A stretch of DNA of 64,000 nucleotides from Paucidesulfovibrio gracilis DSM 16080 (GTDB lineage: Bacteria; Desulfobacterota; Desulfovibrionia; Desulfovibrionales; Desulfovibrionaceae), in contig NZ_FUYC01000004.1 of NCBI RefSeq assembly GCF_900167125.1, positions 62,001-126,000 of the forward strand, read 5' to 3'. A program made the position numbers and the translations under genes. The notes below the pieces were generated by a model. It made no database searches and was not told the origin of the DNA. It saw only the letters and a list, made by a program, of their open reading frames with translations. This document shows positions 25,451 to 30,677 of this stretch, in pieces; position 1 is the stretch's first letter; every line of letters begins with the position of its first letter.

Positions 25451-25795
25451 TTACTGCAGTTTCAGCCAGTCCTGCATGCGCTCGTAGACCCGTTCGATTT
25501 GTTCATCCAGCTGGCGCAAGGCCTCAACGGATTGTCCTTCATCTTCACTTTTTGCCGCCAGTTCCAATTGCAGGCAGGCCTCATGCAAAGGTTCGGCTCC
25601 GAGGGTTGCAGCGGCCCCTTTCAGGGAGTGGGCCAGATATGTCACTTCGCCGAGTTGTCGGGATTCCATGGCAGTGCGGATTTTGGCCACACGTTGAGGC
25701 TCTTCCCGGAGGAAAACCGTGAACAATCTGGTTATGAAAGCTTCTTTTCCTTTCATCTTGTCAAACCACGGTTTGCTGATCGGCTCGTTGGGCAT
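25451..25795 (-). CDS. Stand-alone Hpt (histidine phosphotransfer) protein
   Basis: 114-residue single-domain phosphotransfer protein. The phospho-accepting histidine is H56 in YLAHSLKGAAATLGA, within the four-helix Hpt pattern (helices near 15-30, 36-64, 69-84, 90-112). It would shuttle phosphate between response regulators and hybrid kinases; no kinase or regulator lies nearby, so its partners are encoded elsewhere. ATG 25795 is preceded by GAGAGAGAA; a longer in-frame reading upstream is low-complexity and lacks a ribosome site. Confidence 0.88.
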   Translation of the reverse strand: MPNEPISKPWFDKMKGKEAFITRLFTVFLREEPQRVAKIRTAMESRQLGEVTYLAHSLKGAAATLGAEPLHEACLQLELAAKSEDEGQSVEALRQLDEQIERVYERMQDWLKLQ

Positions 25796-25883
25796 GCGTC
25801 GTTCTCTCTCGCTTGGCTGGTATTGAATCAAGGGACAGAGCGCTGAAATATCATAATATGTAAGTATAATTGCCAACGCTCCG

Positions 25884-25907
25884 GGCCGTTGTTTGGAACG
25901 GCCTTTT
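25884..25907 (+). other. Hairpin with T4 in the Hpt upstream region
   Basis: GGCCGTT/AACGGCC, a perfect 7-bp stem with a six-base loop followed by TTTT on plus. No plus-strand gene lies immediately upstream, so on minus it would be a 5' leader hairpin of the Hpt gene. Its role is unclear. The rest of the 276-bp gap 25796-26071 is AT-rich with no gene I can support. Confidence 0.3.
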
Positions 25908-26035
25908 AACTTATTATACGCGCTATCTTTTCCATGGGCAATGCCTGCGGGGAAAAAGCAGGGTACAAAAAAGTGGCTATACGTACAAAATAATATATGG
26001 GGAGGCAGCTGCGCGATTCCCCGATGCGGGGCAAG

Positions 26036-26062
26036 AAAAGGGAGGCCCATGACGGGCCTCCC
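26036..26062 (-). terminator. Terminator after the ACT-domain gene
   Basis: Minus-strand stem GGGAGGCCC/GGGCCTCCC (9 bp, 5-base loop) followed on that strand by CTTTTC, starting 10 bases past the stop of the ACT protein. It closes the paaK-ACT transcription unit. Confidence 0.8.
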
Positions 26063-26071
26063 GGTGGATGA

Positions 26072-26503
26072 TTAGATGTTGTAGAGTTGTTCGCCCGGGA
26101 TAATGGTCAGATTGTTTTTTTGCAACAATTCTATGGCCTGGTCCGTGCGATCGAATCGGAAGATGATCACCGCGTTGTTAGAGCTTTGGTGTACAAAGGC
26201 GTACATGTACTCCACATTGATGTTTTCTCCCTGCAAAATGGCGAGAACATTGTTCAGCCCACCCGGGCTGTCATCGATTTCCAGGGCCACAACAGTGGTG
26301 CGGCCCACTGTGAAACCTTTGTTCTTCAGTTCGTTGCGGGCTTTTTCAAAGTCGGAAACAATGAGTCGCAGGATGCCGAAGTCTGAGGTATCCGCCAGGG
26401 ACAGCGCCCGGATGTTCACGCCGCTGTCGCTAAGGATTTTCGTCACTTCCGCAAGGCGTCCGGCCCTGTTTTCAAGAAAGATGGACAGCTGATCAACCTT
26501 CAT
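26072..26503 (-). CDS. Tandem ACT-domain protein
   Basis: 143 residues made almost entirely of two ACT domains: the first begins [19 protein letters not shown], the second [22 protein letters not shown] pairs bind amino acids and act as sensors. The gene is 39 bp downstream of paaK, and the two share the attenuated leader upstream of paaK, so an aromatic amino acid (phenylalanine or phenylacetyl intermediates) is the likely ligand; that is inference. The start ATG 26503 begins [12 protein letters not shown]. Confidence 0.88.
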
Positions 26504-26542
26504 GGCTTTCCTCTCTGAGTTGTCGTTGTTCGCTTGGGAATA

Positions 26543-27850
26543 CTACTTGGCTTCCTTGCGCAAATCAATGATGCGTTGCGCCTTGCCCATGGAGCGTTCA
26601 ATGCCCTTGGGCTCTACCAGTTTAACGGCGGCCGTGACCCCAAGGAATTCCTTGATGGCGCCCTGTACCTTCTTTTCAAGGGATTGCAGCCCTTTGATTT
26701 CATCTGAGAAAACGCTTTCGCTGACTTCGACGCGGACAGTAAGGGTATCCATCGGGCCTTTGCGATCCACCACCAGTTGGTAGTGGGGGGCTAGGCCGTC
26801 GGTGTCCAGAAGGATGGATTCGATCTGTTGCGGGAATACGTTCACACCGCGGATGATGAGCATGTCGTCGGACCGGCCTTGGACGCGCATCATCCGGGCC
26901 GTGGTTCGGCCGCAACGACAGGGCGTGGTCTCCAGTCTGGTCAGATCGCGGGTGCGGTAGCGCAATAGCGGGATGGCTTCTTTGGTCAGAGTGGTGATGA
27001 CGAGTTCTCCCAGTTCGCCGGGCTGAACCGGTTCGCCGGAAGCGGGGTCAATGACTTCCAGCAAGAAATGGTCTTCCTGCATGTGCAGTCCGTTTTGCGC
27101 CTCAGCGCATTCGATGCCGACGCCTGGTCCCATGATTTCGGAAAGACCGTAGATATCCAAGGCTTTGATGTTCAGTTTGCCTTCGATGTCCTTGCGCATG
27201 GCTTCGGACCAGGGTTCGGCCCCGAATATTCCTACCTTCAGTGGAAGTTTTCTGAAGTCGATGCCTAGCTCCCCGGCGGTTTCTGCCAAGTGCAGTGCAT
27301 AGGAGGGGGTGCAGCAGATGGCTGTGGCCATGAAATCCTTGATGATCATGATCTGACGACGTGTGGCCCCGCCGGACATAGGGATGACCGTGGCTCCTGC
27401 CGCTTCCGCGCCGTAATGGGCGCCCAGCCCGCCGGTGAAGAGTCCGTACCCGTATGCGTTGTGGAGAATGTCGCCGGGACCGACTCCGGCGGCGTTGAGG
27501 CACCGCCCCATGAGGGACGCCCAGGTACGGACGTCGCGATGCGTGTAGCCCACCACGGTGGCTTTGCCCGTTGTCCCTGAGGAGGAGTGGATGCGGACGA
27601 TGTTCTCCATGTTGACGGCGAAAAGTCCGTAGGGGTAGTTGTTGCGGAGATCTTGCTTTTCCGTAAAGGGCAGGTGGCGTACATCGTCGAGGCTGTTGAT
27701 GTCGCCCGGACGTATCCCTTTTTCTTCAAGGCGCTTTTTGTAAAAAGGAACATTATGGTAGACTCGTTCCACCAAGGCCTTGAGGCGGCGTAATTGCAAT
27801 TTCTCCAGATCTTCCCTGGGCATGGTTTCATGTTCCACGTCGAAAATCAT
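26543..27850 (-). CDS. paaK: Phenylacetate-CoA ligase
   Basis: AMP-forming ligase converting phenylacetate (or related aryl acetates) to the CoA thioester. 435 residues, the usual length. The adenylate-forming P-loop is [17 protein letters not shown], followed by [15 protein letters not shown] and a C-terminal lid with [23 protein letters not shown] 27850 is chosen because AAAGGAGG lies about 8 bases upstream; the frame is open further back to 28102 but that would read through a terminator. It forms a unit with the ACT protein and is preceded by a putative Phe-codon attenuator, pointing to anabolic use for phenylalanine synthesis through reductive carboxylation of phenylacetyl-CoA. Confidence 0.93.
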
Positions 27851-27881
27851 CTCCGATCCTCCTTTGGGCTGACAAAATAAA

Positions 27882-27909
27882 CAAAAAGGCCGCGGAATCC
27901 CGCGGCCTT
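27882..27909 (-). terminator. Leader terminator of the paaK unit (attenuator)
   Basis: On minus: AAGGCCGCGG, loop GATT, CCGCGGCCTT (perfect 10-bp stem, 27909-27886), then TTTGTTTATTTTG. It ends about 20 bases before the paaK ribosome site and on the same strand, so it must be bypassed for paaK to be expressed. No other minus gene lies upstream for it to terminate. Confidence 0.85.
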
Positions 27910-27944
27910 GAATGAGCGTCTCTCTCGCCTTGCTATGCCACGGG
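27899..27944 (-). promoter_or_regulatory. Predicted antiterminator pairing
   Basis: CCCGTGGC (27944-27937, minus) can pair with GCCGCGGG (27906-27899), eight contiguous pairs including one G-U, using the left arm of the terminator. The first element overlaps the last codons of the leader peptide (CCC GTG GCA TAG), so a ribosome at the stop codon would mask it and let the terminator form, while one stalled in the Phe run would leave it free. Geometry seen in sequence; function inferred. Confidence 0.65.
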
Positions 27945-28016
27945 CTGTATGGGCCTCCTAAAAAAGAAGCCGAAAAAAAAGCCGGTAAAGCACAGAGGCG
28001 AAGTAGATTCTTGCAT
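27933..28016 (-). CDS. Phenylalanine-rich leader peptide (27 aa)
   Basis: Short ORF ATG 28016 to TAG 27933 encoding [19 protein letters not shown] and RRPIQPVA. Seven of 27 residues are Phe, six of them at positions 13-19. A Phe run ending a dozen or more bases before an antiterminator segment, then a stop codon, then a terminator, is the layout of pheA/pheST-type leader peptides. The ribosome site is weak (CAGG about 12 bases upstream), and the nearest promoter-like pair (TTGACG-N17-CATGAA) would start transcription almost at the ATG, so the true promoter is uncertain. Confidence 0.65.
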
Positions 28017-28154
28017 GGAAATTTCATGCCTGAAAGTGATGGAGCCGTCAAGTGGTCAGCGCTGTGGAGAGGGGGGGAGGGCGAAACGAAGTGGTGACGC
28101 ATTGCCAGGTTCAGGCAAATTCTTTACAAGTCGTAACGAATCTGGAGGATCAAA

Positions 28155-28763
28155 ATGAACTTTGCGAAACTTGTTGCCGCGACCCGATCGGTACGGCGTT
28201 TCCATGAGGATCGAGCGATTGGTTTGGAGGTGTTGCGGACGCTGACGGACCTGGCGCGTCAAACTGGATCCGCCGGGAATCTGCAACCACTTCGGTATGT
28301 TTTGAGCAATGATCCCGCAACCAATGAGCGTATTTTTTCCCGGCTGGTGTGGGCGGCGTACCTTAAGGACTGGAAAGGACCGGAATCCGGGGAGCGTCCT
28401 GCCGGGTACGTCGTGGTCTGTGCTGAAGCCGGGGCAAAGGATGCCAATGCGCGCGTTGATGCAGGGATCGCCTGCCAGACCATGCTGCTCGCCGCTCGGG
28501 AGAAAGGGCTTGGCGGATGTATGCTCGGATCAGTGGATCGGGCCGGATTGCGTCTGGATCTGGACATTCCGGAAAACGTGAATATTTTATATGTGCTTGC
28601 ATTCGGCGAACCGTTGGAGCAGGTCGTGCTGGAACCGCTCGGCGAGGACGGCGGAGTGAAATATTGGCGTGATGAGAAAGAGGTGCATCATGTGCCCAAG
28701 CGGGGGCTTGAGGAATTAATTCTTTCCACGTTTGAACGCGGGAAACCGGAAAAGAATGATTGA
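28155..28763 (+). CDS. Nitroreductase-family protein
   Basis: FMN-dependent oxidoreductase of the nitroreductase fold, 202 residues. Typical features are the N-terminal RSVRRF (FMN phosphate contact), the segment QTGSAGNLQPLRYVL with the flavin-binding Ser/Asn, and a late Gly-rich segment GLGGCMLGSVDR. The natural substrate is unknown. GGAGG seven to eight bases before ATG 28155 supports the start. It is divergent from the paaK leader with about 140 bp between its start and the leader ATG, and its last 8 bases overlap rsfS. Confidence 0.9.
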   Translation: MNFAKLVAATRSVRRFHEDRAIGLEVLRTLTDLARQTGSAGNLQPLRYVLSNDPATNERIFSRLVWAAYLKDWKGPESGERPAGYVVVCAEAGAKDANARVDAGIACQTMLLAAREKGLGGCMLGSVDRAGLRLDLDIPENVNILYVLAFGEPLEQVVLEPLGEDGGVKYWRDEKEVHHVPKRGLEELILSTFERGKPEKND

Positions 28764-29145
28764 AAAAGAAAAGACACATAGCTTGCTGGATCGTTCCGAA
28801 AAATTAGAACTTTTGGCTCGTTGGCTTACGGAGAAACAGGCTTCGAAGCTTGTGGCGCTTGATGTGGAGGGGCTTTGCCCCATCACAGAGACCTTGCTTG
28901 TGGTGACCGCCCGTGGTGTGCGCCATGCGCAGGGGCTGGCGGATATGCTCTTGGACCGTTCCAGCGAAGACAACATTGAGTATCTTGGCATGGAAGGCTA
29001 CAAGGGTGGAGCCTGGATTTTAATGGATTTCAATGACGTGGTTGTTCATATTTTTCAGGAAGAGCACCGCGCCCTATATAATCTTGAAGGGTTATGGGCC
29101 GAGGCCAAGGTCATGCCCTTGCCCGAGGACGGCGAAGACCAATGA
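28756..29145 (+). CDS. rsfS: Ribosome silencing factor RsfS
   Basis: Binds ribosomal protein uL14 and blocks subunit joining when nutrients are short. The 129-residue protein carries the family core beginning WILMDFNDVVVHIF and continuing QEEHRALYNLEGLW. ATG 28756 lies within the end of the nitroreductase gene; this start gives the normal N-terminal helix. Its stop overlaps the gpmI start (ATGA at 29142-29145). In many bacteria rsfS neighbours nadD; here gpmI follows instead. Confidence 0.95.
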   Translation: MIEKEKTHSLLDRSEKLELLARWLTEKQASKLVALDVEGLCPITETLLVVTARGVRHAQGLADMLLDRSSEDNIEYLGMEGYKGGAWILMDFNDVVVHIFQEEHRALYNLEGLWAEAKVMPLPEDGEDQ

Positions 29146-30677
29146 GCACCCCGTATACCCCGACGCTGCTGCTTATTCTGGACGGTTGGGGCGTAGCTCC
29201 GGATGGACCGGGCAATGCCGTGGCCAAAGCGCACACTCCCAATTTGAACCGGCTTATGAAACACTGGCCCCGAACCACCCTGGAGTGCTCGGGGCGGGCC
29301 GTGGGGCTGCCCGACGGGTTTATGGGCAATTCCGAAGTGGGACATATGAATATTGGTGCTGGCCGAATCGTCTATCAGGATATGACCCGTATCGACATGG
29401 CCATGGAAGATGGTTCCTTGAAAGAAAATCCCGCCTTGCTTGAGCTGATGCGGCGCACCGGCGAGCAAGGAGGACGACTTCATTTTCTCGGCCTGCTTTC
29501 GGATGGCGGCGTGCACAGTCATCAGAAGCATTTGTATGCATTGTTGGAGATGGCTCGCGAGCAAGGGCTTCAGGACGTATTCGTCCACGCCTTTCTGGAT
29601 GGACGCGATACTCCGCCTACGAGCGGAATGGGGTATGTCAAGGCATTCAGAGACGTGCGCCGGCGAATGGATTTCGGACGCATCGCCACGCTTATGGGCC
29701 GGTATTACGCCATGGATCGGGACACCCGGTATGATCGGACCAAAATCGCATGGGATGCGTTGGTCCACGGTCAGGGGGAAAAGGTGGACGGTGCTGTTCG
29801 AGGGGTGCGTGACGCGTATGTCATTGGAGAAACCGATGAATTCGTGAAGCCCCGCCTTGTTTCGGATGTTGATGGCGTTATTCGCGATGGGGATGGCGTG
29901 TTTCTGTTTAACTTTCGCGCCGACCGCATGCGCCAGCTGGCCCGTGCCCTGTTCAGCGATGCATTCGATGCCTTTGATCGTGGGCGTAGACCCCGGCTGG
30001 CGGGGTTGGCGAGCATGACGCAGTATGACGCTTCGTTTCCTTTTCCCGTAGCGTTTCCCCCCCAGCGTTTGGATGGCTGTCTGGGACAGGCGGTTTCCCA
30101 GCTCGGGCTTCGTCAGTTGCGCATTGCGGAAACGGAAAAATATGCACATGTGACGTATTTTCTCAATTGTGGTCGGGAAGAACCGTATCCCGGCGAAGAA
30201 CGGAGAATGGTCCCCTCGCCTCGTGATGTGGCTACGTATGACCTCAAGCCTGAAATGAGCGCGGAGCAGGTCACTTCGGAACTGCTGAAGGAACTTGCCG
30301 ATTATGATTTGACGGTGTGCAACCTCGCCAACTTGGATATGGTGGGCCATACCGGTCGTATTGATGCCACGGTGTTGGCGGCGGAAACAGTGGATGCCTG
30401 CGTCGGCCGCTTGGTTGACGCGGTTCTCAAGCAGCATGGACGGATTTTATTGACGGCGGATCATGGCAATGCCGAGGAAATGCTTGATGCCGAGGGGGAA
30501 CCGCAGACCGCGCACTCGAAAAATGCCGTGCCTTTTGTGCTGATTGAGGACGGCATGGAAGGACGTGTGCTCAAGCCCGGAAAGCTGGGAGACATCGCAC
30601 CGACATTGTTGCATCTTTGGGGAGCGGCCCCCCCCGCAGGAATGGCGGGTGAAATTCTTGTCGAGGAGACGAACTAA
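29142..30677 (+). CDS. gpmI: 2,3-bisphosphoglycerate-independent phosphoglycerate mutase
   Basis: Interconverts 3- and 2-phosphoglycerate with a Mn-dependent phosphoserine. The 511-residue enzyme has the alkaline-phosphatase-superfamily start LLLILDGWG, catalytic S64 in GNSEVGHMNIGAGR, the substrate motif DGRDTPP, and the second metal site segment ADHGNAEEM near the C-terminus. Together with fbp at the window start it serves central sugar metabolism. The following zinc-ribbon gene starts in its stop codon (TAATG). Confidence 0.98.
   Translation: MSTPYTPTLLLILDGWGVAPDGPGNAVAKAHTPNLNRLMKHWPRTTLECSGRAVGLPDGFMGNSEVGHMNIGAGRIVYQDMTRIDMAMEDGSLKENPALLELMRRTGEQGGRLHFLGLLSDGGVHSHQKHLYALLEMAREQGLQDVFVHAFLDGRDTPPTSGMGYVKAFRDVRRRMDFGRIATLMGRYYAMDRDTRYDRTKIAWDALVHGQGEKVDGAVRGVRDAYVIGETDEFVKPRLVSDVDGVIRDGDGVFLFNFRADRMRQLARALFSDAFDAFDRGRRPRLAGLASMTQYDASFPFPVAFPPQRLDGCLGQAVSQLGLRQLRIAETEKYAHVTYFLNCGREEPYPGEERRMVPSPRDVATYDLKPEMSAEQVTSELLKELADYDLTVCNLANLDMVGHTGRIDATVLAAETVDACVGRLVDAVLKQHGRILLTADHGNAEEMLDAEGEPQTAHSKNAVPFVLIEDGMEGRVLKPGKLGDIAPTLLHLWGAAPPAGMAGEILVEETN

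Follow-up and report, generated by a model that had tools for sequence, protein, structure and literature searches.

The paaK-ACT locus and its upstream region

The window, i.e., the whole 64,000-nt stretch of DNA analysed here, carries on its minus strand a gene for a phenylacetate-CoA ligase-like protein (PaaK), which is followed by a gene for a protein with a pair of ACT domains and preceded by a short, Phe-rich reading frame and a terminator hairpin. In the order of transcription, the features are:

28046..28051, minus strand: -35-like box TTGACG of a predicted sigma-70 promoter, with a 17-nt spacer to 28028
28023..28028, minus strand: -10-like hexamer CATGAA, a weak match (spacing read from the sequence)
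27933..28016, minus strand: leader peptide of 27 aa with 7 Phe (by translation)
27960..27989, minus strand: predicted control Phe codons F10, F13-15 and F17-19 (by translation and sequence reading)
27937..27944, minus strand: 5' segment of the antiterminator, CCCGTGGC, in the last codons ahead of the stop
27886..27909, minus strand: intrinsic terminator hairpin AAGGCCGCGG-GATT-CCGCGGCCTT, whose left arm is common to the antiterminator
27883..27887, minus strand: U run of the terminator (sequence reading)
27858..27865, minus strand: Shine-Dalgarno sequence AAAGGAGG of paaK (sequence reading)
26543..27850, minus strand: phenylacetate-CoA ligase-like (PaaK) gene, ATG at 27850 (TIGR02155 and solved structures)
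26072..26503, minus strand: gene for the ACT-domain-pair protein, 39 nt after paaK

The best solved-structure matches of this AMP-forming ligase are the phenylacetate-CoA ligases 2y27, 2y4o and 4r1l (E 3e-143 to 1e-124), and its TIGR02155 score of 601.3 bits falls under the equivalog cut-off of 646.3, which counts against the interpretation that we favour below. The ACT-domain pair (PF19571, ACT_8; best structure match 2f06, E 1.5e-30) is probably encoded in one operon with paaK; the ACT gene follows paaK in all 19 leader-bearing loci with downstream DNA (among L002-L204). The examined DNA of the Desulfovibrio records L055-L084 yielded no ACT gene, which likewise weighs against our interpretation.

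Translation of 28016-27933 on the minus strand confirmed the 27-residue peptide with Phe at positions 10, 13-15 and 17-19 that a sequence-only reading of this DNA had described, and the perfect 10-bp terminator, U-rich tail and paaK ribosome site that it had placed after the peptide stop are all legible in the sequence. On the minus strand the terminator comprises the left arm AAGGCCGCGG (27909-27900), the loop GATT (27899-27896) and the right arm CCGCGGCCTT (27895-27886). The eight-base alternative pairing claimed for CCCGTGGC and the terminator left arm also holds: CCCGTGGC (27944-27937) and GCCGCGGG (27906-27899) form eight contiguous pairs, one of them G-U. The minimum-energy structure for the end of the leader contains this pairing (-31.6 kcal/mol, z -2.39; an energy equalled in 4 of 200 shuffles). 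When both strands of the window were scanned with all 20 amino acids for the full architecture, namely a terminator, an antiterminator pairing and a leader with at least five codons for one amino acid in 12, this site was the single match at the threshold used. The Rfam model for Phe leaders (RF01859, Phe_leader) scored 26.8 bits, not reaching its gathering threshold of 55; the nine Rfam matches that 25500-29500 gave at E 10 or lower include no T-box, there was no gathering-level leader near paaK, and seven distant records plus L294 gave one tRNA and nothing else.

Two further observations concern the same DNA. The segment AGGAGGCC (27959-27952, minus strand), which lies in or beside the last Phe codons and includes two AGG codons, pairs with the terminator right arm in the minimum-energy fold. 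An alternative frame is open from 28102 to 26543 on the minus strand, running through the leader into paaK as a 519-aa ORF, and an over-long PaaK call by automatic annotation may thereby hide the leader.

Conservation, geometry and promoter spacing of the paaK leader

Of the 348 genomes searched in the order, 255 encode a close PaaK (E up to 1e-185), and up to 450 nt upstream of paaK were scanned in 135 of these 255, mostly the best-scoring ones, so that nearer relatives are over-represented (four of the 135 upstreams are shortened by contig ends). The full architecture is found in 48 of the 135 upstreams under the relaxed and in 38 under the strict form of the test, while none of 2680 dinucleotide shuffles passes either. 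The 48 relaxed matches span seven genera in three families: g1 (3/3), g5 (25/31), g8 (11/17), g28 (2/3), f4g44 (5/7), f4g36 (1/1) and f6g38 (1/1). Two of them are doubtful, namely G300, with a long TTG frame that lacks the TTGAC box, and G067, with a leader of 10 residues. The preference for Phe is pronounced: at a threshold of at least four of 12 codons, Phe accounts for 39 of the 135 upstreams, Leu for seven and every other residue for at most three, and the Leu matches are taken to be mostly shifted frames of T runs. Three sets of results are counted against our interpretation. The remaining 87 of the 135 upstreams fail, including all scanned members of 28 genera; only L040 and L051 of the 80 named records pass at a threshold of at least four Phe; and G284, G285, G312 and G287 have a correctly placed leader with few Phe codons.

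Alignment of the paaK upstreams shows that the Phe run, the position of the stop codon and both pairings are kept, with covariation in the pairings, while the peptide around them changes, which supports the attenuation logic originally suggested for the window. Apart from Phe, the leader peptides diverge (e.g., MHSHIFFSFFFFFFFRTEI, MKNFLVFRSFFFFMCPQ and MRYIIDSVFFLIFRSPFHGVTV), and the f4g44 (Desulfomicrobium-type) clade displays the same logic in different sequences. Tyr and Trp join the Phe run in some paaK leaders, most clearly in G039 (YWYFWY) and G037 (FYFYFF), which would suit a route able to supply products besides Phe. As a separate observation, the g29 upstreams G231, G235, G241 and G243 show terminator-like hairpins of a GCCACGG type before paaK and no Phe-rich leader; these are possibly decayed attenuators.

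Of the 48 genomes, 42 entered the covariation analysis, as 27 distinct rows; G302 and the five rows of f4g44 were left out because their register does not match. Both-sided changes occur in five of nine terminator-stem pairs and in two of seven antiterminator pairs, with 94.2% and 98.4% of cells paired, respectively, percentages that are biased (and to that extent count against us) by the selection of every row for having both pairings. The stem exceeds its shuffles on four of five measures (observed value reached by 0 of 500), and the antiterminator exceeds nearly all of its shuffles on four of five (reached by 1 to 8 of 500). Further pair types are not above the shuffles (reached by 497 of 500 for the stem and 151 of 500 for the antiterminator), which we also set on the opposing side. 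The antiterminator, left arm and right arm are all changed together in G281.

The spacing of these elements across the 48 cases is compatible with control by a translating ribosome. The distance from the last Phe codon to the antiterminator is 10-31 nt (median 21), and the antiterminator start, counted from the first stop-codon base, ranges between -15 and +14 nt (median +6). A ribosome reaches about 12 nt beyond its A site; hence, a ribosome stalled on the Phe run is predicted to expose the antiterminator fully or almost fully, and one at the stop codon to cover it.

In the window, the promoter is laid out as TTGACG, 17 nt, CATGAA, 6 nt and the leader ATG, and 46 of the 48 leader-bearing genomes have a TTGAC box at a distance of 35-40 nt ahead of that codon; G300 does not, nor does G314 when the script's choice of start codon is used. 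The -10 boxes are weak, which counts against the interpretation. Promoter-anchored paaK leaders with at least three Phe in 12 codons are found in 53 of the 135 upstreams versus 23 of 2680 shuffles. With this spacing, +1 would coincide with the leader ATG or lie beside it, which predicts a leaderless leader mRNA, and since the box is so regularly placed, a transcription start downstream of 27960 appears unlikely.

These comparative data already contradict the view that the locus has an ordinary terminator next to T-rich DNA in which a Phe-rich frame arose by chance, or that PaaK is extended at its N-terminus. Such a view could draw on the other frame being open from 28102 into paaK and on Phe-codon runs being common (59 pattern matches versus 61 in the reversed control across eight genomes); this plain DNA pattern is unspecific, and we used it only to nominate sites for the architecture test. 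Against it stand the 48 of 135 upstreams compared with 0 of 2680 shuffles, the sole occurrence for any amino acid in 64 kb at the threshold used, and the maintenance of the stop position and pairings across divergent genera, so that we regard it as barely credible. The N-terminal extension in particular is ruled out by the leader stop being kept in relatives.

Parallel leaders at other loci

The other fetched loci (1.1 Mb) were scanned for the whole architecture at sites nominated by the Phe-run pattern; four matches were for other residues (three Arg and one Tyr) and are taken as background. Beyond these, comparable leaders precede three further genes or regions in the window's genome. The first is MSDYILGLGAFFFFFFFFFILARGKEGTV (L382, G000:C2:300300-305300; L320, leader ATG at 1471), behind which lie a small ORF and the gene for a sodium:solute symporter (PF00474), the latter a candidate importer of Phe or phenylacetate. 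The second is the Phe-only leader MTTRIRTNFFFVFFFFTAFRGLGVTL ahead of a stand-alone ADTH synthase (L335, G000:C7:5328-6125 with upstream), of which the sister-genome copy is 84% identical and scores 396 bits against TIGR01949 (cut-off 299). ADTH synthase is the first committed aromatic step in the alternative shikimate route, and the stand-alone copy is a possible Phe-specific isozyme of that step. The third is a mixed aromatic leader, MNSHKDLGVFASFYFWYWFTRVSGHGRVVA (L285, leader ATG at G000:C1:273000, minus strand), at an ADTH synthase copy that shares its strand with pheA and lies upstream of that gene; this leader was found by reading, the scan having missed it, and FYFWYFYF-type leaders recur at ADTH synthase in many relatives. 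The window's genome has a third ADTH synthase copy (L378, G000:C8:60800-62900), and in each of three genomes examined this copy of the genus lacked a promoter-anchored leader.

The association is recovered in relatives for both gene families. Among the best 30 ADTH synthase loci, 20 upstreams pass the architecture test versus 0 of 600 shuffles, and promoter-anchored aromatic leaders are present at 26 of 30 ADTH synthase loci versus 12 of 1500 shuffles; for the symporter, 6 of 15 upstreams from 14 genomes pass versus 1 of 300 shuffles. On these grounds paaK is placed in an aromatic attenuation regulon, together with the symporter, the stand-alone ADTH synthase and the region of ADTH synthase and pheA. 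None of the 31 ior upstreams has even a terminator in its last 450 nt, and the absence of an ior leader counts against our interpretation. The 30 PDT-domain upstreams, a further control, gave the same null result over the same length (0/30), which leaves room for regulation of pheA, because in this genome an attenuated ADTH synthase precedes pheA.

Proposed attenuation and direction of the pathway

We posit that, in these sulfate-reducing relatives of Desulfovibrio, a leader-peptide attenuator reading the charging of Phe-tRNA controls the paaK-ACT operon within an aromatic biosynthetic regulon, and that the pathway runs from phenylacetyl-CoA to Phe (probability roughly 0.8). The transcript would begin with the leader AUG or right beside it, and ribosomes would thus load on a leaderless message. 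With charged Phe-tRNA plentiful, the ribosome would reach the stop codon and cover CCCGTGGC, the terminator would form and transcription would end before paaK. With charged Phe-tRNA scarce, the ribosome would stall on the Phe run, CCCGTGGC would pair with the terminator left arm, and the predicted read-through would allow paaK and the ACT gene to be transcribed. The ligase would then make phenylacetyl-CoA from phenylacetate, its predicted substrate, and an aryl-pyruvate:ferredoxin oxidoreductase (IOR) would carboxylate this to phenylpyruvate, which transamination would convert to Phe.

The anabolic phenylacetate-to-Phe role is favoured because paaK belongs to the aromatic attenuation regulon and because iorA and an iorB-like neighbour are present. 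The Phe attenuator and the nature of the co-leadered genes, which are biosynthetic (ADTH synthase) or plausibly concerned with import (the symporter), fit a PaaK that feeds IOR. The sequence-only reading had likewise proposed that the ligase would serve Phe synthesis, and like leaders before ADTH synthase and the symporter, both here and in related genomes, argue for that direction. Of the ior genes that it had named as a check, iorA is in the genome, with 714.9 bits against TIGR03336 (cut-off 650.9); 50 of 59 relatives likewise score above this cut-off. For iorB the match is weaker: the best families of the ORF directly after iorA are those of the IOR beta subunit, and its scores of 163.9 and 155.3 bits lie under the cut-offs of 238 and 205.8, which counts against the anabolic role. 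Two further points are to be set on that side: pheA, i.e., de novo Phe synthesis, is present in the window's genome, and IOR-alpha stays below 650.9 bits in all six f4g44 genomes checked (518-526 in G046, G068 and G070; 327-336 in G054, G058 and G050).

Several of these points would suit a different outcome, in which the attenuator is real and the product of PaaK-ACT serves another fate, such as energy, detoxification or a secondary product, with Phe shortage acting as a proxy signal. The sub-cut-off score of PaaK, the ior genes that are unlinked to paaK and without a leader in the window's genome, and the weak IOR-alpha of the f4g44 genomes all lean this way. Such a fate would not account for the same leader type at the ADTH synthase gene and in the region of ADTH synthase and pheA, nor for the clustering of paaK, ACT and ior genes in G003 and, in varied arrangements, in distant phyla; moreover, the available portions of a 2026 paper argue for an anabolic role of an IOR-linked ligase in Bacteroides (PMC13285125). 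We therefore consider another fate unlikely and retain the phenylacetyl-CoA-to-Phe reading.

The available portions of the same paper describe a route to aromatic amino acids through IOR and an arylacetate-CoA ligase that has been proposed for methanogens and Bacteroides, and identify the AMP-forming ligase beside IOR in Bacteroides as an arylacetate-CoA ligase by assay (PMC13285125). The Desulfovibrionales genes resemble this route in combining a ligase with IOR genes and in the predicted reductive carboxylation of phenylacetyl-CoA; the evidence differs in being regulatory here, i.e., amino-acid-specific attenuation of the ligase operon. Anaerobes have oxidative routes for aromatic 2-oxoacids, and those portions also cite the Bacteroides thetaiotaomicron IOR as converting Phe to phenylacetate (PMC13285125), the latter being counted against our reading. 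PaaK and IOR might by the same token run oxidatively, from Phe through phenylpyruvate and phenylacetyl-CoA to phenylacetate. A Phe attenuator would then turn a degradative gene on when Phe is absent, and the co-regulation with ADTH synthase and the statement, in the same portions, that AMP-forming ligases typically favour acyl-CoA synthesis (PMC13285125) also speak against it. We judge the oxidative direction quite improbable, and synthesis of Phe from phenylacetyl-CoA is the direction that we adopt.

The paaK-ACT-ior set of anaerobes may be degradative or biosynthetic. An amino-acid-specific attenuator on the ligase operon, like those on the committed step of aromatic biosynthesis, provides independent evidence for the biosynthetic direction and makes the question testable by RNA analysis and labelling. 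In a wider proposal, to which we assign even odds, leaderless aromatic attenuators would operate across the Desulfovibrionales, with a mixed Phe/Tyr/Trp type on the aromatic operon and a Phe branch (the ADTH synthase isozyme, a phenylacetate/Phe symporter and paaK-ACT) that would place phenylacetate uptake and CO2 fixation by IOR, leading to phenylalanine, under the control of Phe-tRNA.

The pheA and pheST attenuators of enterobacteria (RF01859) release the downstream gene when Phe-tRNA is short, and the paaK leader shares with them a Phe-rich leader ORF and mutually exclusive antiterminator and terminator. In contrast to them, it has no gathering-level RF01859 match, is predicted to be leaderless, occurs in another bacterial group and targets a phenylacetate-CoA ligase with an ACT partner. 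The earlier remark that no such leader is known to have been described for paaK agrees with the open-access literature searched, in which we found none; nor did this literature, with most subscription journals outside its scope, yield a Phe or aromatic attenuator in Desulfovibrionales, and the same is true of the available portions of PMC545781, PMC2965389, PMC3766115, PMC5343134, PMC1262725, PMC7311316 and PMC5764234. Leader-peptide attenuation, probably of leaderless design, is extended to a group for which the literature searched held no description of it. A close counterpart in design is trpL of Sinorhizobium meliloti, whose leader RNA, according to the available part of the source, has the start codon ATG of its ORF at the very 5' end (PMC7298713). 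The likeness lies in this leaderless leader, which at paaK is predicted from promoter spacing, and the difference in the codons and targets: Trp and trpE(G) in S. meliloti, as opposed to Phe or mixed aromatic codons and several operons here.
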